Source of the DNA: Streptomyces liangshanensis
GTDB lineage: Bacteria > Actinomycetota > Actinomycetes > Streptomycetales > Streptomycetaceae
Assembly (NCBI RefSeq): GCF_011694815.1
Contig: NZ_CP050177.1
Span: 7,571,501 to 7,635,500 of the forward strand
Direction of reading: 5' to 3'
Length of the DNA: 64,000 bases
The stretch's first letter is position 1. Each line of letters begins with the position of its first letter. The notes below the pieces were generated by a model. That model had not been told where the DNA came from, made no database searches, and saw only the letters and a program-made list of their open reading frames with translations. A program made the position numbers and the translations under genes. This document shows, in pieces, positions 2 to 29,611 of this stretch.

Positions 2-901
2 ACTGGCACCATCCGCAAGGAGAGCGGCGAGGGCGGCGGGAGCGCCGCCCCCGACCCGTACACCCCCTCGGCGCGGCGCCTGGAGCGCGAGCGCTTCAAG
101 CGCGCCCGGGCCCGCCGCGCCACCGCCGTCGCCGCCCTCTCCACCCTCGTGACCGGCGCGGTCCTGTTCGTCGTCATCACCGGCTCGCCCGGCTGGCAGC
201 GCACCCGCGAGACGTTCTTCAGCGCCGAGTACGCCCGCATGGCGCTGCCGGACGTCCTCGACGGACTGCTCCTCAACCTGAAGCTGCTGGCGATCTGCGG
301 CGTCTGCGTGCTGCTGCTCGGCATGCTGCTCGCGATCGCCCGCACGCTGCGCGGCCCGGTCTTCTTCCCCGTCCGCGCGCTGGCCACCGCGTACACCGAC
401 TTCTTCCGCGGGCTGCCCCTGATCATCTGCCTGCTGATGGTCGTCTTCGGCGTGCCGGCCCTCCGGCTCCAGGGCGTCACCAACGACCCGGTGGTGCTCG
501 GCGGCGCCGCGCTCGTCCTGACCTACTCCGCGTACGTCGCCGAGGTCTTCCGGGCGGGCATCGAGTCCGTGCACCCCTCGCAGCGCGCCGCCGCCCGCTC
601 CCTCGGCCTGTCCGGCGCCCAGACCCTGCGGTACGTGGTGCTCCCGCAGGCGGTACGGCGGGTGGTCCCCCCGCTCCTCAACGACCTCGTCTCGCTCCAG
701 AAGGACACGGGCCTCGTGTCCATCGCCGGCGCGGTCGACGCCGTCTACGCGGCGCAGATCATCGCCGGGAAGTACTTCAACTACACGCCGTACGTCGTCG
801 CCGGCCTCGTCTTCGTCGCACTGACGATCCCGATGACCCGCTTCACCGACTGGGTCACGGCCCGGATGGACCGCAGGCGCGCGCAGGGAGGGACCGTATG
901 A
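2..901 (+). CDS. Polar amino-acid ABC transporter permease (5' end outside window)
   Basis: Membrane permease subunit of a polar amino-acid importer (HisM/GlnP type), working with the ATPase encoded immediately downstream. The frame is open from base 2. The residues before the first in-window GTG (149) read as real protein, with an Arg/Lys-rich cytoplasmic stretch before the first hydrophobic segment, so the true start lies upstream of the window. Several membrane segments follow. The EAA-type loop that docks on the ATPase (AARSLGLSG ... VVLPQA) lies near bases 590-655. The stop overlaps the next start as ATGA, indicating translational coupling. No binding-protein gene is in view. The family is clear; the substrate cannot be read from the sequence. 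Confidence 0.9.
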   Translation, partial: TGTIRKESGEGGGSAAPDPYTPSARRLERERFKRARARRATAVAALSTLVTGAVLFVVITGSPGWQRTRETFFSAEYARMALPDVLDGLLLNLKLLAICGVCVLLLGMLLAIARTLRGPVFFPVRALATAYTDFFRGLPLIICLLMVVFGVPALRLQGVTNDPVVLGGAALVLTYSAYVAEVFRAGIESVHPSQRAAARSLGLSGAQTLRYVVLPQAVRRVVPPLLNDLVSLQKDTGLVSIAGAVDAVYAAQIIAGKYFNYTPYVVAGLVFVALTIPMTRFTDWVTARMDRRRAQGGTV

Positions 902-1692
902 CGGCCGACCAGGCCCACGGCCAGGCTCAGGACCAGGCTCACGACACGCCCGTGCTGCGGCTGGAGTCCGTGCGCAAGACCTTCGGCCGGGACCGCGTCA
1001 TCCTGCGGGACGTCAGCCTGGAGGTCCCGCAGCACACCGTCACCGCGCTGATCGGCGCCTCCGGATCCGGCAAGTCGACGCTGCTGCGCTGCGCCAACCT
1101 GCTGGAGGAGATCGACGACGGGGCGATCTTCCTCGACGGCGAGGAGATCACCGACCCGAGGACCGACCCGGACGCGGTGCGCCGCCGCATCGGCGTCGTC
1201 TTCCAGGCGTACAACCTCTTCCCGCACATGACGGTCCTCCAGAACGTCACCCTCGCCCCCCGCCGCGTCCTCGGCGTGGAGCGCGCCGAGGCGGAGGCGG
1301 CCGCGCGCGAACTCCTCGCCCGGCTCGGCCTCGCCGACAAGGCGGGGGAGTACCCGGACCGCCTCAGCGGCGGCCAGCAGCAGCGCGCGGCGATCGTCAG
1401 GGCGCTGGCGGTACGGCCCCGGCTGCTGCTCCTCGACGAGATCACGGCCGCGCTCGACCCCGAGCTGGTCGGCGAGGTGCTGTCGGTCGTACGGGACCTC
1501 AAGGGCGAGGGCATGACGATGGTCCTGGCCACCCACGAGATGGGCTTCGCCCGGGAGGTCGCGGACCAGGTGTGCTTCCTGGACGACGGCGTGGTGCTGG
1601 AACGCGGCACCCCGTCCGAGGTCTTCGGCACCCCCCGCGAGGAGCGCACCCGGCAGTTCCTGCGCCGGATCGTGGAGGCGGGCCGGCTCTGA
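898..1692 (+). CDS. Polar amino-acid ABC transporter ATP-binding protein
   Basis: ATPase subunit (264 aa, GlnQ/HisP class) that powers the importer whose permease ends at 901. Walker A is GASGSGKST at about residues 53-61. The signature LSGGQQQRA and the Walker B segment ending in LLLLDE follow, then the D-loop and the switch histidine in ATHEMG. The Walker B tail reads DEITAALD where many relatives have DEPTSALD, a substitution common in this subfamily. The gene is coupled to the permease by an ATGA overlap. It converges on the NRPS gene, whose stop lies only 19 bases away, and I see no clear terminator between them. Confidence 0.93.
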   Translation: MTADQAHGQAQDQAHDTPVLRLESVRKTFGRDRVILRDVSLEVPQHTVTALIGASGSGKSTLLRCANLLEEIDDGAIFLDGEEITDPRTDPDAVRRRIGVVFQAYNLFPHMTVLQNVTLAPRRVLGVERAEAEAAARELLARLGLADKAGEYPDRLSGGQQQRAAIVRALAVRPRLLLLDEITAALDPELVGEVLSVVRDLKGEGMTMVLATHEMGFAREVADQVCFLDDGVVLERGTPSEVFGTPREERTRQFLRRIVEAGRL

Positions 1693-1711: not shown

Positions 1712-4700
1712 CTATGCGGTCCCGTCTCGGTCCTCGGTCGTGGACAGCCAGTCGGAAATCGAGTCCCACAGCAGGGAGAGCATGGGGGGATCGGCCATGT
1801 CGTCGTGAGAACAGGGCAGTCGCGACTCGCTGATATGGCCGGACGTATAGGGCTGCCACATGAAACGGCCCGAACCGTCGTCGAGTTCGTCCGACGAGAC
1901 GAACAGGACATCGCCGTGGAATCTCCGAGGGCGGTGCTTCACGTAGATGCGGGTGTTGTTCGCGATGATCCGCGCCCTGACCTCGGCCTCTTCCTCCGAG
2001 ATCTCCTTCCGGAAGTATTCCGGGAGCCCGGCGAGATCATGGAGAGAGGGCGCCTCGTCAAGTTCCGCCGATTCCTCCGCCGCTCCCTGCGCCGCTTTCT
2101 CCGCCGAATCGAGCGTGTCGATGGGGGCAGGCGCGTAGCCACCCATGATGACGAGCGCCACGTGCTGGCCGTCCTCCTGTAGTTGTACGGCCATCTCCTG
2201 CGCCACGCGGCCTCCCATGGACCAGCCCAGCAGGTGATAGGGACCGGACGGTTGTACTGTGCGCAGCTCTCTGACGTATTCCTCCGCCATTTCCCGGATG
2301 GACCCCGGCAACCCGCCCGAGGCGTCGGCATCTCGCGCCTGAAGGCCGTACAAGGGGATGCCGGCAGGCACGAATCCCGCCAGAGGGGCGAAACACCAAC
2401 TCAACCCGGATCGCGGATGGACACAGAACAGGGGTGGCCGGTTCCCGTGCGTCCTGATGGGGAGAAGCGTGCGCAGCGAGTCCCGCGTCGCGGGGAGGCT
2501 CAGACGATGTGCCAGTCCGGCGACACTGGGTGCTTGCATCAGCATCTGGACGGATACGTCGACCCTCATGACCGAGCGAATCCGGCTCACCAGCCTGACC
2601 GCCAGAAGTGAATGGCCACCGCATTCGAAGAAGTTGTCCTCGACGCCGAGGTGAGGCACGTTCAGTTCCTCGGCGAAGATCCCGCACAGGATTTCCTCCT
2701 GGACCGTGGCCGGCCCCCGGCCGCCGTCGGCCGGGCGGGGATCCGGGGCGGGGAGCGCCGTGCGGTCGAGCTTGCCGTTCGGTGTCAGAGGGAGGGCTTT
2801 CAGGACCACCAGGGCGGACGGCACCATGTGCTCGGGAAGCGTCGCGCCGAGGTGGGTGCGCAGGGTGGCGGTGTCGACGGCGTTCGACCGATGGGGGGTG
2901 GGGACGAGGTAGCCGACGAGGCGTTTGTCCCCGGGGAGGTCCTCGCGTAGGACCACCGCTGCCTGGGCCACGTCCGGGTGGGCGGTGAGCGCGGCTTCGA
3001 TCTCGCCCGGTTCGATACGGAAGCCACGGATCTTGACCTGGTCGTCGGTACGGCCCAGGTATTCCAGTTGTCCGTCGGTGTTCCAGCGGGCGAGGTCGCC
3101 GGTGCGGTACATCCGCTCGCCCGGACCTCCGAACGGGTTGGCGACGAACCGCTGCGCGGTCAGCCCCGGCCGGGCGTGATACCCGCGCGCCAGTTGGGCG
3201 CCGGAGACGTACAACTCACCCGCGACACCGACCGGTACGGGCCGCAACGCCGCGTCCAGGACGTAGACCTGGGTGTTCCACACCGGACGGCCGATCGGCG
3301 CCGCACCCCGGGGCCATGCCTCCGGGTCCGTCGGGAGTGTGTACGCGGTGACCACGTGGGTCTCGGACGGACCGTAGTGGTTGTGCAGTACGGTCCCGGC
3401 CGTCCCGCACAGGTCACGGACCCGGTCATTGAGCACAAGGGCCTCGCCGGCCTGGGAGACATGGCGCAGGCACGGCAGATCCGTGCCCCGTTCCGCCCGT
3501 GCCTCGCCCAGTGCCTCCACCATCAGGTGGGGGGCGTACAACTCGGTCGCCTTCTGCTCCCTCAACCACACCACGAACTCCTCCGGGTCGCGCCGGATCT
3601 CTTCGTCGGGTATCACCAGGGTCCTGCCGTCCAGGAGAGTCGAAAGGATCTCCTGGGCCGAGACGTCGAAGCTGATCGCGGTGAACTGGGCGACCCGCGA
3701 TCCGTCCTCGGCGGGGATCGCGGAAGCGTGCCAGGACATCAGGTTGACCAGCGCGCCACACGACATCACCACCCCCTTGGGACGGCCGGTCGAGCCGGAG
3801 GTGTAGATCAGGTACGCGGGGTGCTTCGGCAGCAGCGGACCGGTCCGCTCCTCGTCGCCGGGAGCGCCGGCCGGCAGTGCGCCGACTTCGGCGACAACCA
3901 CGGGGTCGTCCAGCAGGAGCGTGGGCCCGGCGGCCAGGCGGTCGGCGACCTCTGTGGTGGTCAGCGTCAGGGAGGGGACGGCGTCGGCCAGCATGAAGGC
4001 GATCCGCTCGGCCGGATACCGGGGATCGATCGGCAGGTAACCGGCGCCCGACTTGAGCACCGCCAGCAGACCGACGATCAGGTCCACCGAGCGGGGCACG
4101 GCCAGCCCCACGATGCACTCGGGACCGATACCGCGCCGGATCAGCAACCGGGCAAGCCGGTTCGCACGCTGGTCGAGCTGCGCGTAAGTCACCTCATCGC
4201 CACCGAAGACCACCGCGACCGCATCAGGATGCTTCGCGACCCGGGCCTGGAACAGCTCGGGCAGCGCCGCCGCGGGCACCTCCCGGACGGTCTCGTTCCA
4301 CCCCGCCACCACCTGGTGCCGCTCCGTCGCCGACAACACGTCCACCCCGCTGACCCGCTGGTGCGGTTCCCCGGTGACCGTGTCCAGGACGCGGACGAAC
4401 CGGTCGGCCAGGGTCTCGACCGTTTCCGCGTCGAACAGGTCGAGGGCGTAGTCGATTCCGCCGTGCAGACCGGCGGGGCGATTGCCGGTGTGGGCGTCGG
4501 CGTCGGTGTGGAAGGTTTCGCTCAGGCTGAGGAACAGGTCGAATTTGGCGGCCGGTTCGCCGGTGGGCAGCGATTCGGTGTGAATGCCGGGCAGGTCCAG
4601 TACCGCCGGGGCGTTGTTCTGCAAGGCGAACATGACTTGGAAGAGTGGGTGGCGGGCCATGGAGCGGGCGGGTGCGAGGTCTTCGACCAGTCGCTCGAAG

Positions 4701-5679
4701 GGCACGTCTTGATGCGCGAAGGCGGCGAGGCTGTTGTCTCGGATCTGTTCCAGCAGGCCGGCGAAGGACGGGTCGTCGGACAGGTCGGTCCGTATCACGA
4801 GGGTGTTGACGAAGAATCCGACGACGTCGTTCAGTGCTTCGTCGGTGCGTCCGGCGACCGGGGTCCCTACGGGAATGTCGTTGCCCGCGCCCATCCGGGA
4901 CAGCAGTACCGCCAACGCGGCCTGGAGCACCATGAACACAGTGACGCCCTGGGCGCGGGCCAGTTCGGCGACCCGGGCATGCACCTCGGCCGGGACGCGG
5001 ACGTCCACCCGGCCGCCGCGATGGGAGGCCACTGTCGGCCGTGGCCGGTCGAACGGCAGCACCAGCTCCTGCGGTATCCCGTCCAAAGCCTTGCGCCAGT
5101 AGCCCAGTTGCTCGTTCAGGAGGCTGTCCGGGTCGGTGTCCGCGCCGAGCAGCTCGCGCTGCCACAGGGTGTAGTCCGCGTACTGCACCGCCAACGGCTC
5201 CCACACGGGTATCCGGCCCGAGGACCGTGCCGCGTATGCGAGCGACACATCTCGCGCCAGCGGTCCCATCGACCATCCGTCACCGGCGATGTGATGCACC
5301 ACCATCACCAGTACGGACTCACGCGGTCCCACCCGCAGCAGCCACGCCCGTAGAGGAAGCTCAGCCGCCAGATCGAACGCATGACCCGCCAGCCCGGCAA
5401 TCGCCGCTGCCAGATCCTCCTGCTCCACCTCGACCACCGGCAGATCAAAAGAGGAAGGTGGGGGAAGGATCTGCTGATACGTTCTGCCCTCCTCGGCCGG
5501 GAAGACCGTCCGCAGCACCTCGTGCCGACCCACCACATCACCCAGCGCCGTCCGCAACGCCTCGACGTCGAGGTCACCGCTCAGCCGCAGAGCCAACGGG
5601 ATGTTGTAGGTCGCCGACGGACCTTCCAACTCGCCCAGGAACCAGAGCCGTTGCTGTGCGAAGGAGACCGGTGTCTCCT
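1712..5679 (-). other. NRPS module 5 (C-A-T-TE), predicted Pro-like, release thioesterase
   Basis: An LCL-type C domain (His codons 5291-5296) precedes an A domain from a different lineage than the other four. Its core begins FDVSAQ and the YGPSETHVV block follows. The pocket reads D-V-Q-L-S-A-H-V-V, close to proline codes (D-V-Q-L-I-A-H-V-V) with Ser at 299, so proline or a substituted proline is likely. The T-domain serine codon is at 2609-2611. The TE (about 1715-2500) begins LFCVHPRSG and has GWSMG with its Ser codon at 2219-2221. Its EntF-like sequence allows hydrolysis or cyclisation, for example onto the module 1 Ser hydroxyl. Confidence 0.75.
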
Positions 5680-8600
5680 CGGGGCGCGTCATCGCCGCCA
5701 GCGCCGGACGTGCAGTACCCGAATCGGTCAGCCGTCGCGCGAGTCCGGCCACGGTCGGCGCCTCGAACAGCGCCCGCATCGCGACCTCCACCCCCAGATC
5801 CGTCCGGATCCTGTTGGTCAGCTGGACCGCGAGCAGTGAGTGGCCGCCGAGCGCGAAGAAGTTGTCGTCCACGCCGACGCCGGGCAGGCCCAGGACTTCG
5901 GCGAACACCGAGCACAAGATCTCTTCGCGCGCGGTGGCGGGCCCCCGGCCACTGTCGGTCGGCCGGTAGTCCGGAGCGGGCAGGGCCCTGCGGTCCAGCT
6001 TGCCGTTCACCGTCAGTGGCAGAGCGTCCAGCACCACCAGCGCGGACGGCACCATGTACTCCGGCAGCACCGCGCCAAGACGACCGCGCAGCGCGGCACC
6101 GTCCACCGGAGGAGTGGTGCCACCGCGGGGGACGAGATAGCCGACCAGACGTTTGTCCCCGGGATGGTCCTCGCGTACCGTCACCGCTGCCTGGGCCACC
6201 GACGGATGCGCGGTGAGCGTGGCCTCGATCTCACCCAACTCGATACGGAACCCACGGACCTTCACCTGGTCGTCCGTACGGCCCAGGAAGTCCAGGACAC
6301 CGTCCGGCCGCCATTTCGCCAGGTCGCCGGTACGGTACATCCGCTCGCCCGGACCTCCGAACGGGTTCGCGACGAACCGCTGCGCGGTCAGCTCCGGCCG
6401 GTTGAGGTAGCCACGGGCCAGCCCTGCGCCCGCGATGTACAACTCACCCGCCACCCCGGGCGGCACCGGTCGCAAGGCCGCGTCCAGTACATAGAGCTGG
6501 GTGTTGGCGATGGGGCTGCCGATGGGCGGTGTGCTGAGTTCGTCGGGGGAGAGGGGGTCGGTGGTGGTGGCGCAGACGGTGGATTCCGTCGGTCCGTAGG
6601 CATTGACGAGACGGCGGCCGGCGGCCCAACGGGTCGCCAGGTCACCGCTGAGGGCCTCACCGGCGGTGACGAGGGTGGTGATCGACGGCAGGCTGTCCGG
6701 TTCCAGGAGAGCCAGCACGGCGGGAGGCAGGGTGGCGTGGGTGACCGACCGTTCCGCGATCAGGCGGACGAGCGCCGGGCCCGGCAGCAGGTCGTGCGAT
6801 GCGGCTGTGACGAGGCGGGCGCCGTTGCACAGGGCCATCACCGTCTCCCAGATCGCCGCGTCGAAGCTCGCCGAGGCGAACTGGAGCACCCGGCTGCCTG
6901 CTGTGATCGCGAATTCCTCCGACTGCGCGGCGGCCAGGGTCGGCAGTCCTCGGTGGGTGACGGTCACACCCTTCGGTCGTCCGGTGGAGCCGGAGGTGTA
7001 GATCACGTAGGCGGGGTGGGCGGGCAGCAGGGCGGTGTGGCGTTCGGCGTCGGTGGGATTGGTCTCCTGGATGTCCGCGAGAGCGGTGACGGTCCTGGTG
7101 GCGTCGACAGCCACGTACGGCGGATGGCCGTCGGTGAGGCGGGAGGCCAGGTCCGTGCTGGTGAGCACCAGCAGGGGCTGGGCGTCGGTGAGAACGTAGG
7201 CGATCCGCTCGGCGGGGTGGTCCGGGTCGACGGGTACGTACGCGCCACCGGCCTTGGTCACCGCGATGAGGGCGACGACGAGGTCGACGGAGCGGTGCAT
7301 CATGACCGCCACCGGCGACTCGGGTCCTACGCCCCGGTCGATCAGGAGGCGGGCGAGGCGGTTGGCCCGGGCGTTGAGTTCCGCGTAACTGACTTCCCCC
7401 TCCTCGAAGACGACAGCGACCGCGTCCGGCGTACGGGAGGCCTGTGCCTGGAACAGCTCGGGCAGCGTTACGGCGGGCACGTCGCGGGCGGTGTCGTTCC
7501 ACTCGGCCAGGACCCGCTCCCGCTCCCCGGGACCGAGGACGTCCACCGCGCCGATCTGCTGGTGCGGTGCTGTTTCCAGTGCGGAGACGACGCCTTCGGC
7601 CGCCGTATGGACCAGGCCGCACAGTGCTTCCCCCGACACAGGGTCGGCGACCTGCACGGTGAGGGTGAATCCGTCACTGGCGTCGTCCACGCTCAGTGCG
7701 ATCGGATAGTTCGTCCGCTCCTGGTCGTACAGCACCGCGATGCCGTCGAGGCCGTGGTCCGTCCCCGGCTCGGCGCTCCTGGAATGCCGGTAGTTGAAGA
7801 GTGAGGTGAACAGCGGGGTGTCCGCGGTGATACCGCTGGCCTGCCGGGCCAGTTTCAAAGGCGCGTGCTCATGGACGAGCAGGTCCGCCAGCTGGTTCTG
7901 CACGGACCGGACCGTGTCCCCCACTTCCGCGTCCCGAGTCCGCACCCGTACCGGCAGGGAGTTGATGAACAGGCCGAGAACGCGGTCCGCGCCGCTTCCC
8001 GCGGCCATGCGGCCGAACAGGACCGTGCCGAAGACGACGTCGTCCCGGCCCGTGGTGGCCGCCAGAACCCGCGCCCACACGACATGCAGGACCGTGGCCG
8101 GGCTCACGCCCAGTCGGCGTGACCGGTCGCGCAGCCGCCGTGCGAGTTCCGTATCCATGACCCGACGGAACTCCGTCACTCCGGTTCCGTCGCCACGGAC
8201 GTCGAGCAGGCCGAACGGCGCCGTCGGCTCGGTCACGTCCCCCAGGAGGGTGGAGAAGTACCTCCGGTGTTCCTCCTGCGCCACCCGAAGGCGGGCCTGG
8301 GCAACGAAGTTCCGGAACGGCAGAGGCGCCGGCAGGGTGTCCTCACGGCCCTCGACGAACGAGCGCACCTCCTCCAGCAGCATGTCCAGTGTGGTGTGGT
8401 CCGAGATCAGGTGATGGGCCTGGACGAGCCCGAGCCACTGACCCTTCACCGGACCGGCCGCCGTGTACACGCGGATCAGCGGCGCCCGGCCGATGTCCAT
8501 CGACGCGGGGCACGCGGCCAGCATCCGGCCGGTCACCTCATCGTCAGGGCCCCCGGGCAGATCGACGCCTTCCACCGGGATCGCGACGTGGCGTACCACC

Positions 8601-11600
8601 ACCTGGACCGGTTCGCGCAGCCCTTCCCACACGACGGCGGTCCGCAGGATGTCATGCCGGTCGACGACCTTCTGAAGTGCCTCCAGGAACCTGTCGAGCC
8701 GCTGCCGGGAGTCGAACCCCAACAGCACCGGCAGCACATACACATCGGTTCCGTCACCGGAGTCATCCATCAGGTGATGGAAGAGGATCCCTTCCTGGAG
8801 CGGAGCCAGCGGGTAGACGTCGGCCACGTTGCCCGCCCCGCCGGGAATCCGGGCCACGATCCGGTCGATCTCCTCCTGGGTCAGGTCCACCAGGGGAAGC
8901 AGGTCGGGAGAGAGGGCGACGGCGTCGTGCGGAATCCGGTTCTCCGGCACCGCCACCTCGGCCCGGCCCTCCGACGCGGCCAGTCCGGCAGCGGTCGGCG
9001 CCGCGAACAACGACCGTACGTCAACGGATATCCCCCGGCCGCGCAGCAGCTCCACCACCCGTACCGCGAGCAGTGAGTGGCCGCCGAGTTCGAATAAGTT
9101 GTCGTCCACGCCGACGGTGGGCAGGCCCAGGACTTCGGCGAACACCCCGCACAGGATCTCCTCCTGCACGGTGGCCGGCCCCCGGCCGCCGTCGGTCCGC
9201 CGGTGCTCCGGTGCGGGCAGGGCCTTGCGGTCCAGCTTCCCGTTCGCCGTCAGCGGCAGGGCGTCCAGCACCACCAGGGCGGACGGCACCATGTACTCGG
9301 GGAGTGTCAGGCCGAGGTGGGTGCGCAGGGCGGCGGCGTCGACCGTGCGTGTGCGACTGTGGGCGGGGACGAGGTAGCCGACGAGGCGTCGGTCGCCGGG
9401 GTGGTCCTCACGTACCGTCACCGCTGCCTGGGCGACGTCCGGGTGGGTCAGCAGTGCGGCTTCGATCTCGCCCGGTTCGATACGGAACCCGCGGATTTTC
9501 ACCTGGTCGTCGGTACGGCCCAGGTATTCCAGTTGTCCGTCGGTGTTCCAGCGGGCGAGGTCGCCGGTGCGGTACATCCGCTCGCCCGGACCTCCGAACG
9601 GGTTGGCGACGAACCGCTGTGCGGTCAGTCCCGGCCGGGCGTGGTAGCCACGGGCCAGGCCCGCGCCGGAGACGTACAACTCACCTGCGACACCCACCGG
9701 CACCGGCCGCAACGCCGCGTCCAGAACGTAGACCCGGCTGTTGGGGACGGGCGTGCCGATGCGTGGTGTGTGGTGTGCGTGGGGCGAGAGGGGCGCGGTG
9801 GTGGTGGCGCAGACGGTGGATTCCGTCGGTCCGTAGGCGTTGACGAGCCGGCGCCCGGCGGCCCAGCGGTTGGCCAGGTGCTGGTTCAGGGCTTCGCCGC
9901 CGGTGACGAGGGTCGTGATCGACGGCAGACTGTCCGGTTCCAGGAGGGCCAGTACGGCCGGGGGCAGGAGTGCGTGGGTGACCGACCGCTCCGCTACGAG
10001 GCGGACGAGCGCCGGACCCGGGAGCAGGTCGTGCCGCGGGGCCATGACGAGGCAGGCGCCGTTGCACAGGGCCGTCACCGTCTCCCAGATCGCCGCGTCG
10101 AAGCTCGCCGAGGCGAACTGGAGCATCCGGCTGCCCGCCGTGATCGAGAGCTCCTCCGCCTGTGCGGTGGTCAGACTCGGCAGTCCTCGGTGGGTGACGG
10201 TCACGCCCTTGGGCTGTCCGGTCGAGCCGGAGGTGTAGATGACGTAGGCGGGGTGGGCGGGCAGCAGTGGGGCACGGCGTTCGGCGTCGGTGGGGTCGGT
10301 GTGTTCGAGACCCTCCAGTGCGATGGTGGTACGGGGAGCGTCGACGGTCAGGTACGACAGCGCTCCACTGCCGAGGCGGGAGACCAGGCTCGTGCTGGTG
10401 AGTACGAGGACGGGCTGGGCGTCGGTGAGGAGATAGGAGATCCGCTCGGCGGGGTAGTCCGGGTCGACGGGTACGTACGCGCCACCGGCCTTGGCCACCG
10501 CGAGGAGGGCGACGACGAGGTCCACGGAGCGGTGCATCATGACCGCGACCGGCGACTCGGGTCCTACGCCCCGGTCGATCAGGAGGCGGGCGAGGCGGTT
10601 GGCCCGAGCGTTGAGGTCCGCGTACCTGACCTCTACGCCCTGGAAGACCACCGCGACCGCGTCCGGGGTGCGGGCGGCCTGGGTCTGGAACAGCTCCGGC
10701 AGCGTTACGGCGGGCACGTCGCGGGCGGTGTCGTTCCACTCGACCAGGACCCGCCGCCGCTCCGCCGGATCCTGAACCTCGATGGCGGTGACGTGCTGGT
10801 GGGGGTTGCCGCTGACGGCGTCCAGGACACGGAGGAACCGCGCGGCCAGGGTCTCGACCGTCTCCGCGTCGAACAGATCGCGGGCGTAGTCGATACCGCC
10901 GTGCAGACCGGCCGGCCGACTACCGGTGTCGGCGTCGGTGTGGAAGGTCTCGGCCAGGGTGAAGGCGAGGTCGAACTTGGCCACCGGCTCGCCGGCGGGC
11001 AGGAGGGTGGCGTCGACACCAGGCAGGTCCAGCACGGCCTGGGTGTTGTTCTCCAGCGTGAGCATGACTTGGAAGAGTGGGTGGCGGGCCATGGAGCGGG
11101 CGGGTGAGAGGTCTTCGACCAGTCGCTCGAAGGGCACGTCTTGATGCGCGAACGCGGCGAGGCTGTTCTCTCGGACCTGTTCCAGCAGGCCGGCGAAAGG
11201 CGGGTCGTCGGACAGGTCGGTCCGTATCACGAGGGTGTTGACGAAGAATCCGACGACGTCGTTCAGTGCTTCGTCGGTGCGTCCGGCGATCGGGGTCCCT
11301 ACGGGAATGTCGTTGCCCGCGCCCATCCGGGAGAGCAGTACCGCCAACGCGGCCTGGAGCACCATGAACACGGTCACGCCCTGGGCGCGGGCCAGTTCGG
11401 CGACCCGGGCATGCACCTCGGCCGGCACAAGGACGTCCACCCGGCCGCCACGATGGGAGGCCACTGTCGGCCGTGGCCGGTCGAACGGCAGCACCAGCTC
11501 CTGCGGTATCCCGTCCAAAGCCTTGCGCCAGTAGCCCAGTTGCTCGTTGAGCAGGCTGTCCGGGTCGGACTCCCCACCGAGCAACTCGCGCTGCCACAGC

Positions 11601-14600
11601 GTGTAGTCCGCGTACTGCACCGCCAACGGCTCCCACCCGGGCACCCGCCCGGCGGTACGGGTCGTGTACGCGACCGACACGTCACGCGCGAGCGGTCCCA
11701 TCGACCATCCGTCACCGGCGATGTGATGCATGACCATCACCAATACGCACTCATCAGGCCCCACTCGCAGCAGCCACGCCCGCAAAGGAGGCTCAGCGCT
11801 CAAGTCGAAGGCATGACCGGTCAGCCCGGCAACCGCCTCCGTCAGGCCCTCCCGACCCACCTCGACCACCGGCAGATCGAAAGTGGAAGCAGCCGGGGCA
11901 AGAATGCGCTGGTACGGCCTGCCTTCCTCGGCGGGGAAGACCGTCCGCAGCACCTCGTGCCGGGCCACCACGTCACCCAACGCCATCCGCAGCGCTTCGA
12001 CGTCGAGGTCACCGCTCAGCCGCAGAGCCACCGGAACGTTGTACGTGGCCGACGGCCCTTCCCACTCGCCAAGGAACCACAACCGCTGTTGCGCGAACGA
12101 CAACGGCACTCGCTCCGTCCGCTCCACCCGTACCAGCGGTTGCCGCCTCGCGCGGGAGGAGGCCAACCGGCCGGCCAGGGCAGCCGGAGTGGGAGCTTCG
12201 AACAGCGTCCGGATCGGGACCTCGGCTCCGAACACCGACCGGATGCGGCTCACCACCCGTACCGCGAGCAGTGAGTGGCCGCCGAGTGCGAAGAAGTTGT
12301 CGTCCACGCCGACGCTGGGCAGGCCCAGGATCTCGGCGAACGCCGAGCACAGGAGTTCCTCCTGCACCGTCGACGCCTCCCGCCCCCCGTCCGTCGATTG
12401 ATGCTCCGGAGCGGGCAGGGCCCCACGGTCCAGCTTGCCGTTCACCGTCAACGGCAACGCGTCCAGTATCACCAGCGCGGACGGCACCATGTACTCCGGC
12501 AGCACCTCGCCAAGACGAGCGCGCAGCGCGGCTCTGTCCACCGGAGGAGTGGTGCCACCGTGGGGGACGAGGTAGCCGACGAGGCGTTTGTCCCCGGGGT
12601 GGTCCTCGCGTACGACCACCGCTGCCTGGGCCACGTTCGGGTGGGCGGTGAGCGCGGCTTCGATCTCGCCCGGTTCGATACGGAAGCCACGGATCTTGAC
12701 CTGGTCGTCCGTGCGGCCTAGATACTCCAGTTGTCCGTCGGTGTTCCAGCGGGCGAGGTCGCCGGTGCGGTACATCCGCTCGCCCGGACCTCCGAACGGG
12801 TTGGCGACGAACCGCTGCGCGGTCAGCCCCGGCCGGGCGTGATACCCGCGTGCCAGTTGGGCGCCGGAGACGTACAACTCACCCGCCACGCCCACCGGCA
12901 CCGGCCGCAACGCCGCGTCCAGCACGAACGCTCTCATGTTCGGAACGGGGCGGCCGACGGGGACGCCACCCGGCACCTCCGGGTCCCCGGGGCGGACGGT
13001 GAAGATGACACATCCGACGGCCGCCTCGGTCGGACCGTACTCATTGGTGATCAGGACGTCCCGGTGCGCGGACCGCCACCGCGCGAGCTGCTCGCCCGCG
13101 AGACTCTCACCGCCGACGACCAGGTCTCCCCGGGGGAAGGATCCGGCGGGCTCTTCGCACAGCAGACCCAGGTGGCTGGGCGTCACCTTCAGGAAGGTGG
13201 GTGCCGGACCGGCCGGAAGCCCGTCCCGGATGTCCGCGATGTGCAGGGCGCCACCCGAGACCAGCGTGCCGTACAACGGTGTCACGGTCAGGTCGAACGC
13301 GGCCGACGAGTGCAGCACGGTCCGACCACGCAGCCCGGGATACGCGCCGCTCGCCCAGGCGAGGTACGAGCAGACCGCCGCGTGGCTCACCACGACGCCC
13401 TTGGGGCGTCCCGTGGAGCCGGACGTGTAGATCACGTAGGCGGGGTGATCGGGGAGGAGCGGCGCTCCTCGCTCGTGGTCCGTCAGGTTCTCCGCGGCCA
13501 TGGTGGACAGGACCGCCGTGGTGTCCGGGGCATCCGTGAGGACGCGTGTCACACCGTCACCCACCGCGCCCGCCAAGGCCTGGTGTGTGACCAGCAGGGT
13601 GGTGCGGGCGTCGTCGAGCGTGTAGGTGATGCGGTCGGCGGGGTAGGCCGGGTCGATCGGGACGTACGAGGCGCCGGTCTTGACCACGGCGAGGAGCGCG
13701 ACGACGAGGTCGGCGGAGCCGTCCATCATCACCGCCACCCGTTCTTCCGGCCGGGCGCCCCCGCGCACGAGGACGCGGGCCAGCCGGTTGGCGCGGGCGT
13801 TCAACTCCGCGTAGGTCGTCTCGGTGCCGTCGAACACCACCGCCGTCGCGTCGGGGGTACGGGTGACCTGGGCTTCGAACAGGTCGGTCAACGTGGTCGG
13901 TGGAACCTCGTGGGTGGTGCCGTTCCACCCGGACAGGATCAGCTCCCGCTCCGCGCTGTCCAGGACGTCGACCCGGCTGACCGGCACCGTCGGATGCGCG
14001 GTCACCCTCTCCAGGACCAGGAGGAAGCGCTGTGCGATCGCCTCGGCACTCGCCTGATCGAACAGGTCGGTGGCGTAGACGACCAGTCCGGTCAGGCCCG
14101 CCGGGGTGCCATCGTCGGTGATCCGCTCGGCGATCTGGAAGTCCAGGTCGAACTTGGCGGGAAGGACGCCCGGAGGCAGCGCCCCGATGGCCGACCCGGC
14201 CAGGTCGAGCCGCGTTTCGGCGGAGTTCTGGAGGGTGAGCATGATCTGGAACAGCGGATGGCGGGCCATCGAGCGGGTCGGGGCCAGGTCCTCCACCAGC
14301 CGCTCGAACGGCACATCCTGGTGCGTGTAGGCGCCGAGGTCCGTCTCCCGTGTTCTGGCCAGCAGGTCCAAGAAAGTCGGATCGCCGGACAGGTCCGAGC
14401 GCAGGACGAGGGTGTTGACGAAGCACCCCACCAGATCGTCCAGTGCCTCGTCGGTGCGCCCGGCGATCGGGGTGCCGAGGGGAATGTCGTCTCCCGCCCC
14501 CAGCCGGTGCAGCAGGACGGCCAACGCCGCCTGCACCACCATGAACACCGTCACACCCTGCACCCGGGCCAGCTCGGCCAACCCTTGGTGCAGGCGCGCG

Positions 14601-17600
14601 TCCATGGTGAGTGCGACACTGCCACCCCGATGGGAGACGACCGGGGGACGCGACCGGTCGAACGGCAGCGCCAACTCCTCGGGCAGGCCGGCCAGCGCCC
14701 GGCGCCAATAGGCCAGCTGCTCGGTCAGAAGGCTGTCGGGATCGGCTTCGTCACCCAGCAGCTCGCGCTGCCACAGGCTGTAGTCGGCGTACTGCACCGG
14801 CAGTGGCACCCACTCCGGGGGCCGGCCGGCGGATCGGGCCTCGTACGCGGCCGTCAGATCCCGCGTCAGCGGGGCCAGGGACCACCCGTCCCCCGCGATG
14901 TGATGCACCATGATCATCAGGACGTGCTCGTCAGGACCGGTTTCGAACAGCCACGCCCGGAGCGGGATCTCCTGGGCCAGATCGAAGTGGTGCCCCGCGA
15001 TCCGGGTGAGGGCGGCGTGGAGGCCGGCTGCCCGTTCGACCCCGAGGGGGACCACGACGTCTTCGCGCGGCAGGATCCGCTGGCAGGGCTGCCCGTCCAC
15101 CGTCGCGAACACGGTGCGCAGGACCTCGTGCCGGCCGACCACGTCGCACAGGGCCGCCTGGAGAGCGCCGACCTCCACGGGCGCGGTCAGGCGCAGGGCG
15201 GCGGGGATGTTGTACGTGGCCGACGGGCCTTCCCACTCGCCCAGGAACCACAACCGCTGTTGCGCGAACGACAGCGGCGCCCGCTCCGTCGGCTCCGCCC
15301 GTACCAGCGGTGGCCGCCTTGCACCGGAGGAGGCCAGTCGCTCGGCCAGGGCGGCGGGTGTGGGTGCCTCGAACAGCGTCCGGATCGGGACCTCGGCCCC
15401 GAGGACCGATCGGATACGGCTCACGAGCCGGGTGGCGAGCAGTGAGTGCCCGCCCAGTTCGAAGAAGTTGTCCTCGACGCCGACCGTGGGCAGGCCCAGG
15501 ATCTCGGCGAACACCGAGCAGAGGAGTTCCTCCCGCACCGTGGCCGGCCCCCGGCCGCTGTCGGTCGCCCGACGGTCCGGAGCGGGCAGGGCCCTGCGGT
15601 CCAGCTTGCCGTTCACGGTCAACGGCAGCGCGTCCAGCACCACCAGTGCGGACGGCACCATGTGCTCCGGCAGCACACCGCGCACATGCTTCCGTATCGC
15701 GGCGATGTCCGTACCCGCGGAGTTGTTCGCCGGGACGAGGTAGCCGACCAGGCGCTGGTCGCCGGGGTGGTCCTCACGTACGGTCACCGCCGCTTGGGCG
15801 ACGTCCGGGTGCGCGCTCAGCGTCGCCTCGATCTCTCCCAACTCGATCCGGAAGCCCCGGATCTTCACCTGGTCGTCCGTACGGCCCAGATACTCCAGCT
15901 GCCCGTCGGCGTTCCAGCGGGCCAGGTCGCCGGTACGGTACATCCGCTCGCCCCGGCCACCGAACGGGTTGGCGACGAACCGCTGCGCGGTCAGCCCCGG
16001 CCGCCCGAGGTAGCCACGGGCCAGCTGCACCCCGGCCAGGTACAACTCACCCGCGCTGCCCACCGGCACCGGCCGCAGCGCCGCGTCCAGGACATACACC
16101 TGGGTGTTCCACACCGGGCGGCCGATCGGGACACCGCTCCTGCCGGCGTGAGTGTCAGTATCAGCGTCAGTGCCGGTGTCGCTGTCACACGTCCACGCGG
16201 TGACCTCGACCGACGCCTCGGTGGGACCGTAGAGGTTGTGGAGCGGAACGGCCAGCACGTTCCGGAACTGCCCGGCGACCTCGGTGGAGAGTGCTTCACC
16301 ACTACAGAACACAGCTCGCAGGTCGGTACAGGCGCCGGCGTCCGGTTCGTGGAGGAAGACCTGGAGCAAGGACGGGACGAAGTGCGCGATCGTGACACGT
16401 TCGCGCTGGATCAACCCGGCCAGATAGGTGGGATCGCGATGGCCCGAGGGCTTGGCGACCACCAGCGTGGCCCCCTGGAGCAGCGGCCAGAAGAACTCCC
16501 GTACCGACACGTCGAAACCGAAGGGGGTCTTCTGCAACACCCGGTCGGACGCGGTCAGACGGTAGGTGCCCTGCAACCAGGTCAGCCAGTTGACGACACC
16601 CGCGTGAGGTACGGCCACCCCCTTGGGCTGTCCGGTGGAGCCGGAGGTGTAGATGACGTAGGCGGGGTGGGTGGGGAGCAGGGCGGTACGGCGTTCGGCG
16701 TCGGTGGGGCCGGTGTCCTGGATGTCCGCCCGCGCGCCGATGGCCTGTGGCGCGTCGACGGCCACGTACGGCGGGTGGCTGTCGGTGAGGCGGGGGGCGA
16801 GGTCCGTGCTGGTGAGGACGAGGAGGGGTCGGGCGTCGGTGAGGAGGTACGTGACGCGGTCGGCCGGGTAGTCCGGATCGACGGGCACGTACGCGCCACC
16901 GGCCTTGAGCACCGCGAGGAGCGCGACGACGAGGTCCACGGAGCGGTGCATCATGACCGCGACCAGGGATTCGGGTCCCACACCCCGGTCGATCAGCAGC
17001 CGGGCGAGGCGGTTCGCCCGGGCGTCGAGGTCCGCGTAACTGACCTCCACGCCCTCGAAGACCACCGCGACCGCGTCCGGGGTGCGTGCGGCCTGGCTCT
17101 GGAACAGCTCCGGCAGTGTTGCCGCAGGTACCTCACGGGCTGTGTCGTTCCAGTCGGTGAGAACCAGGCGCCGCTCGGAGCGGCTCATCAGCGTGATCTG
17201 GTGCAGTCGCTCCTCCGTGGTGGAACGCGCCATCCAGCCCATCACGTCAAGGAATCGCGCGGCGTGCTCGCGCACCGCTCCCCGGCTGTAGAGATCCGGG
17301 TTGGCGTCCACGACCACGGACATGCTTCCGTCGGACGACCTGTCGTACACCGAGACCGACAGGTCGTTGAAATTGATGCCGCCGAGCCCGTGCGCCGTGC
17401 TGGGGGCGTCGCCGAATCTCAGGCTGTAGTCGAACGAGACGATATTGACCAGCAGAGGGTAGAGCCCGCCGCGCCCCACGAGCTTGAGGTCTCTGAGGAT
17501 GTCCTCGTAGCGGTATCGCTGATGCCGTAAGGCATCTCTCACCCCGCGGGACACCTGCTTCACGAATTCCCTCACCGTGGCCTTCGGCTGCACGGTGAGG

Positions 17601-18496
17601 CGCAGGGGAATAATATTCGCCGTCATTCCCGGGACGTCTCGCAGCGCGGTTTTCCTGCCCATGACAGGGACCCCGAGAATGATGTCCTCCTGCCCCGTCG
17701 CGCGGTGCAGATAGGCGGCGCTCGCGGCGATGGACAGTCCCGAGAGGCTCGTTCCCAGCCGACGGGCGGAGCTTCTGAGTTCCGCGGCGGCCTCGGGCGG
17801 GATGCGGAGCGTGTGACGGGTCAGTTCATTCGGTGTGGTGGACGGCTCCCGGCCGCTCAGGCTGACCGTCCGGGGGCGATCGGAAAGCCGCTCCGTCCAG
17901 TACTCCCGGTCCGCTTCGAATTCCGCGGACGCCCGGTAATCGGCGTCGGCGTCCATCAGTACGGAACTTGAGGGAAGCGTACTGTCCGCGAGGGATTCGC
18001 CGGCCAGCAGTGCCGTGTACACCGCGGCCACCCGGGCGGCTATCCCGGGTCCCGCGAGTCCGTCCGCGATGATGTGGTGTATTCGCTGGTACCAGAAGAA
18101 GTGGTCTTCCCCCACCTTGAACAGCGCCTCGGCGAAGAGTTCGCCGCCCCGGAGATCCGCCGGACGTCGCATGTCCGCCCGCATCCACGTCTCCGCGGCG
18201 GAACGGGGATCTCCCTCACCGCTCACGTCGATCACGTGGAACGGCCAATCGTCCCGCGCGTCGAAACGCTGCTGCGGGAGCAGGTCCGCCGCCCCCTCGA
18301 ATCGCAGATGAAAACAGTCGACTTCCCGGACGACTCTTCGCACGGCCGCTTCGAAGACGCCGGTGTTCACCTCTCCGTGAATCTCTATGTATTCACCCAT
18401 GTTGTAGATCGGATTGTCTGGATTCATTTGCTGCGCGTGCCACACGCCGAGCTGCCCGGCCATCAATTCACGACGGCCGCCATGTGATCCAGACAT
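1712..18496 (-). CDS. Five-module nonribosomal peptide synthetase with dual E/C domain and thioesterase
   Basis: A single 5594-aa assembly line. Order from the N terminus: C1-A1-T1, C2-A2-T2, C3-A3-T3, dual E/C-A4-T4, C5-A5-T5-TE. Condensation His motifs start at residues 140 (HHIIADG), 1198, 2257, 3361 (HHLISDH) and 4401. Phosphopantetheine serines (GGHSL) are at 1018, 2075, 3141, 4220 and 5296. The TE nucleophile is in GWSMG at 5426 and its likely His at 5564. All five A domains keep the NGKLDR lysine. Pocket residues suggest Ser, Asn, Leu-like, Phe and Pro-like. C1 and TE look EntF-like. I chose ATG 18496 because GGGG lies 7 bases before it; TTG 18538 (14 residues longer) and ATG 18463 are alternatives. 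Codons 323 and 3134 are TTA, so translation probably needs bldA tRNA. No MbtH, tailoring or export gene is adjacent. The product is unknown to me. Confidence 0.95.
5680..8959 (-). other. NRPS module 4 (dual E/C-A-T), predicted Phe
   Basis: This module opens with a long linker and the stretch [10 protein letters not shown], followed at 8774-8779 by HHLMDDSGD. That fits the HH[I/L]xxxxGD signature of dual epimerisation/condensation domains. The second His motif HHLISDH (8411-8416) provides condensation. It should flip the module 3 residue from L to D and then join it to the residue loaded here. The A-domain pocket is D-A-W-T-V-A-A-V-C, the phenylalanine code. The T-domain serine codon is at 5837-5839. 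Dual domains are best known from Pseudomonas lipopeptide synthetases. Confidence 0.82.
8960..12109 (-). other. NRPS module 3 (C-A-T), hydrophobic residue, probably Leu-like
   Basis: The LCL-type C domain (HHIAGDG, His codons at 11723-11728) is almost the same as that of module 5. The pocket reads D-A-W-L-V-G-A-V-C. Relative to the Phe code of module 4 it carries Leu instead of Thr at 278 (codon 9968-9970) and Gly instead of Ala at 301. These are the two positions classically changed in GrsA-PheA to shift Phe toward Leu, so an aliphatic residue is favoured, though an aromatic one is not excluded. The T-domain serine codon is at 9074-9076, and a TTA codon sits seven codons before it (9095-9097). 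The downstream dual E/C domain should epimerise this residue. Confidence 0.7.
12110..15289 (-). other. NRPS module 2 (C-A-T), predicted Asn
   Basis: An LCL-type C domain (HHIAGDG near 14900) is followed by an A domain with pocket residues D-L-T-K-V-G-E-V-G. This is essentially the textbook asparagine code; the Glu at 322 favours Asn over Asp. Asn is the most secure of the five predictions together with Phe. The T-domain serine codon is at 12272-12274. The C-terminal part of the A domain (about 12570-12900) is nearly identical in DNA to the same region of modules 3 and 5. Confidence 0.82.
15290..18496 (-). other. NRPS module 1 (C-A-T), predicted Ser, EntF-like initiating C domain
   Basis: The C domain carries HHIIADG and the flanking WYQR and HQRY signatures seen in EntF. 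It sits at the very start of the protein, so it must take an acyl, aryl or aminoacyl group from a partner in trans. Aligning the A4-A5 region to GrsA-PheA gives pocket residues D-V-R-H-F-S-L-V-E. This differs from the EntF serine code (D-V-W-H-F-S-L-V) mainly by Arg instead of Trp at position 239, so Ser is the best guess. The T-domain serine codon is at 15443-15445. A TTA codon lies at 17528-17530 in the C domain. Confidence 0.75.
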
Positions 18497-18553
18497 CTCC
18501 GCACCCCGGTCAACGCTCGCGCTCCGCACCGGGAGCAATCAATTAAGCAATTT

Positions 18554-18565
18554 GACATCAATGTC
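18554..18565. promoter_or_regulatory. Inverted repeat in NRPS leader
   Basis: GACAT-CA-ATGTC has perfect 5-bp arms around a 2-base spacer. It sits between the candidate NRPS promoter and the start codon, where a repressor could act. It is short, so chance occurrence is possible. Confidence 0.25.
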
Positions 18566-18576
18566 GATCAACTTCA

Positions 18577-18605
18577 CTCTCTCAAGCCGAACTGGACACT
18601 GTCAA
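18577..18605 (-). promoter_or_regulatory. Candidate promoter of the NRPS gene
   Basis: On the minus strand a perfect TTGACA (18605-18600) is followed after 17-18 bases by a weak -10 (AGAGAG or GAGAGT). It lies about 80 bases before the preferred ATG in an unusually AT-rich stretch. The -35 is good and the -10 poor, as in activator-dependent promoters. Confidence 0.4.
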
Positions 18606-18757
18606 CGTTCTTGCCGAAGTGGGCATCTAGGTGGTGTTTGGTGTTTGTTTGCGATGGCTGTCCGGTGTTGCGCCATATTTGTCGCCGGTCGACCGCCGGT
18701 CAACAAATCAGGCGTAATGCGGCGGCGCCCCGCGAGGGTTCGTGAGAAGGTTGGGCC

Positions 18758-19294
18758 GTGCTGCTCGAAACCCCCCGGCTCCGCCTGCGCCACTTCCGGG
18801 CCGACGACGTGCCCGCCTTCTCGGCCTACCGGTCCGACCCGGACGTCGCCCGCTACCAGGGCTGGACCGCGCCGGTGCCCGTCGAGGAGGCCGCGGCGCT
18901 CGTCAAGAAGTTCGCCGCCGACGACCCCGCCCTGCCCGGCTGGTTCCAGTACGCGATCGAGCTCAAGGCCGACGGCTGCCTGATCGGCGACGTCGGGGTG
19001 AACCTGCACGAGAACCTGATGCAGGCCGACCTGGGCTTCACGCTCGCCGCCGACCGGCAGGGCCACGGCTACGCCACGGAGGCCGTACGGGCCGTGCTCG
19101 ACGACCTGTTCGCGCGCGGCCTGCGCAGGGTGTCGGCGGAGTGCGACCTCCGCAACACCCGCTCCGCCCACCTGCTGGAACGGGTCGGCTTCCAGCGCGA
19201 GGGCCTGCGTCCCGCGTTCAGCTGGTTCAAGGGCGAGTGGACCGACGACCTGCTCTTCGGCCTCCTCGCGGACCGCCGGCCGCCCTCAGCCTGA
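18758..19294 (+). CDS. GNAT N-acetyltransferase (RimJ/RimL type)
   Basis: A 178-aa GCN5-related acetyltransferase of the class that acetylates protein N termini or small amines using acetyl-CoA. The N terminus has the typical ETPRLRLRHF opening. The acetyl-CoA-binding loop is visible as DRQGHGYATEA around residues 100-112, followed by the Asn-Arg-Ser-Ala segment of motif B. GTG 18758 is preceded by AGAAGG at good spacing. The gene is divergent from the NRPS (261 bases apart) and its last 9 bases overlap the MarR gene tail to tail. The substrate is unknown. A self-resistance role for the NRPS product is conceivable, but nothing in the sequence shows it. Confidence 0.85.
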   Translation: MLLETPRLRLRHFRADDVPAFSAYRSDPDVARYQGWTAPVPVEEAAALVKKFAADDPALPGWFQYAIELKADGCLIGDVGVNLHENLMQADLGFTLAADRQGHGYATEAVRAVLDDLFARGLRRVSAECDLRNTRSAHLLERVGFQREGLRPAFSWFKGEWTDDLLFGLLADRRPPSA

Positions 19295-29607: not shown

Positions 29608-29611
29608 TGAA

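Follow-up and report, generated by a model that had tools for sequence, protein, structure and literature searches.

A single minus-strand gene in the window (the whole 64,000-nucleotide stretch of Streptomyces liangshanensis DNA that was analyzed) quite likely encodes a self-sufficient lipopeptide synthetase, a nonribosomal peptide synthetase (NRPS) with an RzmA-like start and a type I releasing thioesterase (TE) at its end. Its product is probably a lipopentapeptide or the Ser lactone of one. In the proposed mechanism, the first condensation domain (C1) would take a fatty acyl group, as acyl-CoA or acyl-ACP, from primary metabolism and join it to Ser on carrier domain T1. Asn, Leu, Phe, and Pro would follow in sequence, with C4 flipping Leu to D while coupling it to Phe, and the TE would free acyl-Ser-Asn-D-Leu-Phe-Pro either as a lactone between the Ser oxygen and the Pro carbonyl or as a free acid. 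The gene, its leader, and usually an MbtH partner would form a cassette whose chromosomal position varies within Streptomyces; this strain lacks the cognate MbtH, and the role would fall to one of the five MbtH proteins encoded elsewhere in its genome. One gene (plus MbtH) points to a specific product to seek and is easy to express.

On the minus strand, positions 1712-18496 lie in a single open frame (18538-1712, 5608 codons ahead of the stop), whereas the plus-strand reading is interrupted by stops. The ATG at 18496 starts an NRPS of 5594 aa, bearing out the single protein of this length given in the preliminary description, which names no strand. The complete five-module line with a release TE that it reported also holds: the local domain scan finds condensation, adenylation, and carrier domains (C-A-T) repeated five times in order, with the TE last, as in modular NRPSs of the (C-A-T)n-TE kind. 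Pfam, run on the protein split into two halves, finds Condensation (2+3), AMP-binding_C (3+2), and PP-binding (3+2 stretches) and one Thioesterase; AMP-binding is counted 3+3 because the cut fell inside A3. In motif scans, HHxxxDG is present in C1, C2, C3, and C5, C4 has two His motifs, the carrier domains carry five GGHS motifs, and the TE nucleophile motif reads GWSMGG. The features are:

18497..18650, minus strand: conserved leader (promoter region) of the NRPS gene, aligned in 11 copies, far end approximate
1712..18496, minus strand: five-module NRPS, 5594 aa, (C-A-T)x5-TE, from frame, Pfam, domain scan, and motifs
17177..18496, minus strand: C1, starter (Cs) condensation domain, from C-domain tree, starter tree, and solved-structure match
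18065-18067 and 18050-18052, minus strand: C1 gate residues Ala144 and Gly149, from alignment to the RzmA gate
15560..17041, minus strand: A1, pocket code DVRHFSLVE(K), Ser-like, Lys517 assumed rather than extracted
15335..15559, minus strand: T1 carrier domain, from domain scan and motif
13970..15319, minus strand: C2, LCL-type condensation domain, from C-domain tree
12389..13816, minus strand: A2, pocket code DLTKVGEVG(K), presumably Asn
12164..12388, minus strand: T2 carrier domain, from domain scan and motif
10775..12148, minus strand: C3, LCL-type condensation domain, from C-domain tree
9191..10627, minus strand: A3, pocket code DAWLVGAVC(K), Leu, with Leu278 at 9968-9970 and Gly301 at 9899-9901
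8969..9190, minus strand: T3 carrier domain, from domain scan and motif
7601..8854, minus strand: C4, dual C/E domain, from C-domain tree and elongated His motif
8779 downwards and 8416 downwards, minus strand: C4 His motifs, elongated HHLMDDSGD and HHLISDH, respectively
5954..7390, minus strand: A4, pocket code DAWTVAAVC(K), Phe, with Thr278 at 6731-6733 and Ala301 at 6662-6664
5729..5953, minus strand: T4 carrier domain, from domain scan and motif
4334..5713, minus strand: C5, LCL-type condensation domain, paired with C3 in the C-domain tree
2726..4189, minus strand: A5, pocket code DVQYSAHVV(K), presumably Pro or Pro-like
2501..2725, minus strand: T5 carrier domain, from domain scan and motif
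1715..2488, minus strand: TE release domain, nucleophile Ser at 2219-2221, from Pfam, motif, and alignments
2141-2143 and 1889-1891, minus strand: in the TE, Gly at the usual acid position and the candidate acid Asp (residue 5536), respectively

Pocket codes and the dual C/E type of C4 support the order proposed earlier (Ser, Asn, a Leu-like D-residue, Phe, and a Pro-like residue), read here as Ser-like, Asn, Leu (made D), Phe, and Pro, and these are the residues predicted to be loaded. The Ser A domain of EntF (enterobactin) is close to A1 in the pocket region, but the Ser at A1 may be wrong because its code departs from that of EntF, DVWHFSLVD(K), at two positions (Arg239 for Trp and Glu331 for Asp). 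The codes of A2 and A5 we take to be those of Asn and of Pro or a Pro-like residue. For the A4 code, an excerpt of PMC9866976 gives Phe as the prediction. Domain order, codes, and the placement of starter and dual C/E domains are as listed, and the gene is conserved in orthologs. Ortholog codes are the same at extracted positions save for Val or Ile at 299 (A3/A4) and Ser or Ala at 299 (one A5), where the extracting motif script mis-anchored A5 of G225 and left A2 of G223 incomplete. Because 10 further orthologs share identical A-domain codes wherever readable (6 of the 10 in part only), the architecture is far beyond chance. In a context tree of 80 C domains, C4 falls among dual C/E-type domains and C2, C3, and C5 among LCL-type domains. 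C4 follows a T domain, the NRPS has no E domain, and C4 carries the elongated His motif HH[I/L]xxxxGD of arthrofactin and other dual C/E NRPSs, which supports the prediction that C4 makes Leu D. Unlike arthrofactin-type NRPSs, this one has a single dual C/E domain and a single rather than tandem TE.

A3 (Leu) and A4 (Phe) undergo apparent gene conversion. In eight genes (those of G223, LBL, and SID3212 were left aside), 216 of 464 ungapped columns show some within-gene difference between A3 and A4, yet only 3 of the 464 differ consistently, and two of these are code positions 278 (L/T) and 301 (G/A). The A3/A4 tree pairs the domains within a gene in five of eight cases (G225, 100; G160, 100; G301, 99; G069, 97; and this copy, whose 97 is the opposite side of the G069 split), with no such pairing in G128, G122, and G417. 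GrsA-PheA has a Phe code, as does A4, and its engineered switch to Leu uses positions 278 and 301, where A3 differs from A4: according to part of PMC10590383, T278M/A301G prefers Leu, and variants in which T278L/A301G is part of three or four changes respond to Leu while still responding to Phe. In contrast to engineered PheA, A3 and A4 are a natural pair in one gene, seemingly kept distinct through gene conversion, and would represent two residues guarded by nature to hold Leu and Phe apart. The kind of enzyme is ordinary; its evolutionary record of building-block retention is unusually clear. In the G069 ortholog, C2/C3 recombination has eliminated the Asn module; the resulting four-module NRPS shows a module taken out in frame by nature, with the C2/C3 junction mapped, which is of use for NRPS engineering.

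Eleven copies of the gene are known, this one included, and the broadly shared unit is an ∼150-bp leader, the NRPS gene, and an MbtH gene. The TTGACAGTGTCC block of the leader starts 109 bases before the ATG, at 18605, and is recognizable in 9 of 11 copies, being replaced in G122 and CHD11. An MbtH gene lies beside all nine of nine other orthologs and is absent beside this copy, and activity of the enzyme in this strain could therefore be low; five MbtH genes are located elsewhere in the genome, the best of them 55% identical. This copy and that of SID3212 have upstream genes in common and therefore occupy the same chromosomal place. Other upstream matches pair G069 and G128 each with S. phaeochromogenes, G128 with LBL, and LBL with S. 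griseoaurantiacus; downstream matches are weak (G069 with G225, and G128 with this copy at 32%). Matches of the flanking DNA to 61 genomes are separate conserved genes in scattered places and do not bear on an empty site. Across related Streptomyces, the NRPS gene sits in varied chromosomal settings. A tblastn search of 567 plasmid records with the C1 end found no ortholog, the best place in each being <60% identical.

The need for a starter group, expected in the preliminary description, is supported by C1 being of starter type. The C-domain phylogeny proposed there groups C1 with N-terminal C domains (the context tree above), and in a starter tree (38 sequences, midpoint-rooted, no supports printed) RzmA lies beside the C1 clade, with EntF, ObiF1, and CDA outside. 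C1 is 37.0% identical to RzmA-Cs (277 bits) versus 25.5% to EntF (150 bits), and RzmA-Cs (7c1h/7c1k) is its top solved-structure match. C1 is thereby N-terminal, in the starter clade, and nearest to known Cs domains, as is characteristic of lipoinitiating Cs domains. RzmA (rhizomide) and HolA (holrhizin) likewise start with a Cs domain, but the NRPS here has other residues, another module order, and comes from a different phylum. It also differs at the gate: Met143 and Arg148 of RzmA are Ala and Gly in eight of eight orthologs, and Tyr138 is Ile, Met, Val, or Leu. Shortening the side chain at 148 of RzmA, or introducing Y138A/M143A/R148G, lengthens the acyl group to C8–C16 (a section of PMC7804268), and the Ala/Gly gate of C1 suggests a cap from a medium-length or long fatty acid, predicted to be C8 or longer. 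The gate is not decisive because Gly148 is common among 26 other starter domains of unknown substrate (11 have it, and 2 have both Ala143 and Gly148), and its residues do not distinguish a fatty acyl from some other bulky acyl group. Glu36 was dropped as a candidate tunnel-narrowing residue, since 22 of the 26 also have it.

Among other caps, an aryl group is improbable; C1 would then be EntF-like and accept an aryl acid, 2,3-dihydroxybenzoate (DHB) or some other, from a carrier encoded elsewhere in the genome. C1 does carry a WYQR-HHxxxDG neighborhood, as EntF does, ObiF1, which we take to load dihydroxybenzoate, is its next-best solved match after RzmA, and a DHB-AMP-ligase-like enzyme (486–752 bits) is encoded in five of eight ortholog-bearing genomes. 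However, C1 is less similar to EntF than to RzmA-Cs, the 50 neighboring ORFs scanned with Pfam include no AMP-ligase or ketosynthase family, and three of the eight genomes (G000, which is this genome, G301, and G160) have no DHB-AMP-ligase-like match above background (227 bits). In this genome, the best match is 226.7 bits against a cut-off of 723.55; the survey covered the DHB-AMP-ligase family alone. Because of the three genomes, a DHB-type cap is disfavored and was set aside, as was a cinnamoyl cap, given that the 50 ORFs include no ketosynthase family, as type II PKS genes for a cinnamoyl group would. Of the "acylated or arylated" product first described, the acylated side is therefore favored. 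It is highly improbable that C1 is vestigial or fed an amino acid by a separate protein, yielding an uncapped or peptide-capped product without lipid. The same 50 ORFs include no acyl-activating enzyme or ACP, but neither ACP nor ligase gene is described for the RzmA and HolA clusters in the PMC7804268 section. In addition, HHxxxDG of C1 is intact and C1 is conserved (72–84% in seven orthologs) about like the whole gene (74–82% to this copy).

The favored fatty-acylated product leaves two release outcomes, of which a linear acid is one. Calculated [M+H]+ values for acyl-Ser-Asn-Leu-Phe-Pro as lactone and free acid are 685.39 and 703.40 with C8, 713.42 and 731.43 with C10, 741.45 and 759.47 with C12, 769.49 and 787.50 with C14, and 797.52 and 815.53 with C16, and the four-module G069 product would be lighter by 114.04. 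That the TE hydrolyzes rather than cyclizes, giving a linear lipopentapeptide acid, is plausible though somewhat doubtful. The TE is 38.5% identical across 239 positions to 7crn, the closest solved TE, which we infer to be Skyxy-TE (skyllamycin) from residue numbering and its S97A copy, 7dxo. It keeps Pro31, Trp96, Ser97, and His254 (Skyxy numbering) and differs at Asp124, Gln125, and Phe202: all 10 TE-bearing orthologs that were read lack both the catalytic Asp at its usual position and the Gln of Skyxy, no Gln or Glu125 of the Skyxy epimerizing type lies near the catalytic Ser, and Phe202, called crucial for macrocyclization in part of PMC9321520, is Tyr in six of six aligned TEs. Cyclization is not assured for these reasons, yet Skyxy-TE is macrolactonizing and a Ser hydroxyl is on hand at position 1 of the predicted peptide. 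Cinnamoyl genes, as for skyllamycin, were not seen among the scanned neighbors. It is unlikely that the gene, acquired horizontally and now without its MbtH partner, is silent or decaying and goes unused here. Besides the missing partner, it has two TTA codons and a third-position GC of 0.858 versus a median of 0.957 in 40 other window genes (range 0.89–0.977), a reference set biased because the gene caller favors high third-position GC. Of 17 other NRPS-bearing frames in this genome, 11 have values of 0.927–0.959 and six, read stop-to-stop with probably non-coding padding, 0.73–0.88. But low third-position GC is common to five of five orthologs computed (0.809–0.845), the frame, catalytic motifs, and leader are all intact, and the five other MbtH genes are present.

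The orphan status proposed earlier is supported by genome context and by the open papers searched, in which no product has the order Ser-Asn-D-Leu-Phe-Pro. The acyldepsipeptide (enopeptin/A54556) core is a five-residue Ser-to-(Me)Pro lactone; it differs from the predicted peptide in its middle residues and in having acyl-Phe outside the ring. As described in a portion of PMC9581180, WAP-8294A lipodepsipeptides (Lysobacter) share a fatty acyl on a Ser-Asn start and an MbtH gene in the cluster but have twelve residues (Ser-Asn-Ser-Gly-...), two NRPSs, and no Leu-Phe-Pro end, whereas burrioglumins and burriogladiodins (Burkholderia) are lipopeptides with (Val/Leu)-Phe-Pro near the end but seven or eight residues, a Dhb-Pro start, and no Ser-Asn. 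A tentative joint reading, which we hold somewhat short of probable, is of a mobile, self-contained lipopeptide cassette with only the leader and MbtH as regular companions. Gene conversion would keep overwriting the twin A domains while selection keeps or restores 278/301 each time, the TE acid would have moved to a later position (SSDEL), and the lipodepsipentapeptide would constitute a novel scaffold, of which one species would have a natural four-residue variant. In this joint reading, 278/301 are kept despite gene conversion and the D-Leu-Phe pair would therefore be under selection.

An amino-acid ABC transporter occupies 2-1692, and its binding protein lies immediately beyond the left edge of the window. 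The transporter was rejected as a pathway part, having no counterpart at the NRPS end of other orthologs; ABC ATPases near other orthologs are 54% (G223), 34% (G225), and 32% (G128) identical. Close copies of the transporter (82–85% DNA identity) occur in genomes with no detected ortholog, such as G028 and G018, and it looks like an ordinary amino-acid uptake system.

The minus strand at 1712-18496 is a single open frame in the translated span, and the plus strand over the same bases is interrupted by stops. From the ATG at 18496, the NRPS has 5594 aa. In a Pfam search of the protein, given as two halves cut inside A3, the families found are those of condensation, adenylation and carrier domains, plus a single thioesterase. 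A domain scan built locally orders five C-A-T modules along the protein, with the TE C-terminal to them (Pfam), and catalytic motifs read as intact. These results uphold the preliminary description of a single 5594-aa protein carrying a complete assembly line with a TE. The gene also has two TTA codons (1712-18496, minus strand; codons 323 and 3134; 0-3 among six copies), which are typical of bldA-dependent genes in Streptomyces.

Pocket letters of the five A domains were taken via motif anchors with no trained predictor, and the tenth residue was assumed to be Lys.

Pocket codes of the A domains, taken via motif anchors
A1: DVRHFSLVE
A2: DLTKVGEVG
A3: DAWLVGAVC
A4: DAWTVAAVC
A5: DVQYSAHVV

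Because the code of A1 matches that of EntF from E. coli K-12 except for W239R and D331E, A1 is likely, but not certain, to select Ser. The code of A2 we take to be that of Asn, and A5 presumably selects Pro. The lunaemycin paper, in the portion available, predicts the code of A4 as Phe (PMC9866976). Two positions separate the codes of A3 and A4: at 278 A3 has Leu and A4 Thr, and at 301 A3 has Gly and A4 Ala. According to the accessible part of one engineering study, GrsA-PheA carrying T278M/A301G prefers Leu, and PheA variants with T278L/A301G plus further changes gain a Leu response while the Phe response remains (PMC10590383). By analogy with this engineering at 278 and 301, Leu is the best reading of A3. 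The order Ser, Asn, Leu-like, Phe and Pro-like that had been read from the pockets is thus supported by the codes, with Asn and Pro as presumed assignments and Ser keeping its reservation.

Positions 278 and 301 are also conspicuous across the eight genes in which A3 and A4 were compared (the window's copy and those of Streptomyces genomes G301, G069, G128, G122, G225, G417 and G160). In 216 of 464 ungapped columns, A3 and A4 differ in at least one gene, but a fixed difference in all eight genes is seen at just three: 278, 301 and one Tyr/Phe position. A tree uniting all A3 domains is rejected (delta lnL 238.9; AU p 0.0008). A3 and A4 pair within the gene with support of 97-100 in five of eight genes (G225, G160, G301, G069 and the window's copy); those of G128, G122 and G417 are not paired in the same tree. 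Four-fold-site divergence between A3 and A4 within a gene is 0.129-0.156 for G301, G069, G128 and G225 and 0.24-0.26 for the window's copy and G122; A3-A3 or A4-A4 differences between genes are 0.216-0.365 (five comparisons). Gene conversion is already described in assembly lines (PMC9205934 and PMC4256081, in the parts available). The distinctive point here is that specificity positions 278 and 301 outlast A3/A4 gene conversion.

A tree was built from 80 C-type domains, its groups named by context and known types, with few true references and one record (L070/L092) entered twice. In it, C1 groups with N-terminal starter domains, C4 with dual C/E-type domains, and C2, C3 and C5 with ordinary domains. 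The placement of C1 fits the earlier expectation of a starter group on the first C domain. Among solved structures, C1 best matches the lipoinitiation starter domain RzmA-Cs (277 bits, 37.0% identity); values are 193 bits and 33.3% for ObiF1, 179 bits and 32.0% for CDA synthetase, and 150 bits and 25.5% for EntF. In RzmA-Cs, a smaller residue at 148 plus Y138A and M143A shifts the acyl chain from C2 up to C14-C16, according to the available text (PMC7804268). In all eight orthologs, position 148 is Gly and position 143 is Ala, with I, M, V or L at 138. Gly148 occurs in 11 of 26 other starter domains, all of unknown substrate, and two of the 26 have both Gly148 and Ala143. This analogy favours an acyl chain of medium or greater length, and another bulky acyl group would fit too. 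Of the first eight genomes in which the gene was found, those of the window (G000), G301 and G160 have no DHB-AMP-ligase-like match above 227 bits; matches in the other five are at least 486 bits, and one exceeds the curated cut-off of 723.55.

C4 has the motifs HHLMDDSGD and HHLISDH. The first follows the elongated His pattern HH[I/L]xxxxGD of dual C/E domains, as in arthrofactin synthetases, and C4 is predicted to turn the Leu at position 3 into its D form. The best solved match of the TE is 7crn, which we take to be the skyllamycin thioesterase, Skyxy-TE, from residue numbering and the S97A partner 7dxo. Skyxy-TE epimerises and macrolactonises (PMC9321520 and PMC11735501, as far as available). 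The TE of the NRPS keeps its Ser, His, Trp96 and Pro31 but, unlike Skyxy-TE, lacks Asp124 and Gln125 and has Tyr at Phe202. IMGGYAPAP replaces the Asp124/Gln125 region in all ten TE-bearing copies read, and given this replacement, C-terminal epimerisation by the TE would not be expected. A candidate acid lies downstream (SSDEL in nine copies, SSEEL in one). Release as a Ser lactone is plausible and release as a free acid is possible.

No product with the order Ser-Asn-D-Leu-Phe-Pro was found in the accessible portions of the open-access literature, in agreement with the earlier claim that no characterised Streptomyces peptide is known with this order. The nearest compounds in the accessible part of the papers are WAP-8294A, starting with acyl-Ser-Asn, and the burrioglumins and burriogladiodins, containing (Val/Leu)-Phe-Pro (PMC9581180). 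The NRPS is therefore of a known kind, Cs-initiated lipopeptide synthetases, with a predicted product not found reported in that literature.

The G069 ortholog (L045-L046, G069:C1:140894-154495; 4533 aa, 9.6-Mb contig) lacks residues ~1247-2310 of the window's protein and has no Asn A domain. Its joined C domain is C2-like to alignment position ~200-240 and C3-like beyond, as expected if the Asn module had been lost in frame through C2/C3 recombination. Less probably, its absence reflects a collapsed repeat in the assembly.

C1 matches at E 1e-90 or better occur in 120 of 392 genomes of the genus, and identity is at least 72% in eight (own genome included in both counts), with the next among the matches listed at 49% or less. 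In the species-genome collection, a scan by sequence pattern found 16 loci, of which six are 72-86% identical, all Streptomyces. Three of these, G122 (GESEQ-35), G160 (CHD11) and G223 (S. griseoaurantiacus JCM 4763), were already found; the scan added Streptomyces sp. LBL, SID3212 and S. phaeochromogenes, and 11 distinct NRPS copies are known. The comparison of flanks covered 1.1 to 12 kb of upstream sequence for 11 copies and 15 kb of downstream sequence for six. Upstream genes are common to the window and SID3212, and the NRPS cassette therefore seems to occupy the same place in both; other pairs have a few scattered matches. The only broadly shared flanking features are a ~150-base leader (9/11) and an MbtH gene directly 3' of the NRPS, present in all nine other orthologs with a readable 3' end. 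An adjacent MbtH gene is absent at the window's NRPS, and the best of the genome's five is 55% identical.

The window comprises bases 7571501-7635500 of a 7,716,784-base single contig, and the NRPS gene is therefore ~127 kb from its right end; across five chromosome-sized contigs, the distance to the contig end is 0.13-1.15 Mb. Third-position GC of the NRPS is 0.858; 40 other genes in the window, called by a gene caller biased to high values, have a median of 0.957. Horizontal arrival of the gene would fit.

Other genes in and beside the window
2-1692 (+), with the binding protein just left of the window (L009:19118-19999, +): ABC system for amino-acid uptake, which also has a permease and an ATPase
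18758-19294 (+): GNAT acetyltransferase gene, in the region upstream of the NRPS common with SID3212 over its 1.1 kb
25366-27354: trehalase-like GH15 protein
28314-29690: BNR-repeat protein
34822-36366 (+): protein joining a ThuA domain to ricin-type lectin repeats
47293-53355 (-): genes of an oligopeptide ABC transporter (two ATPases, two permeases and a binding protein), then aldo/keto reductase

The amino-acid ABC system is convergent with the NRPS and ends 20 bases from its stop, where orthologs hold MbtH; similar copies are present in other Streptomyces.
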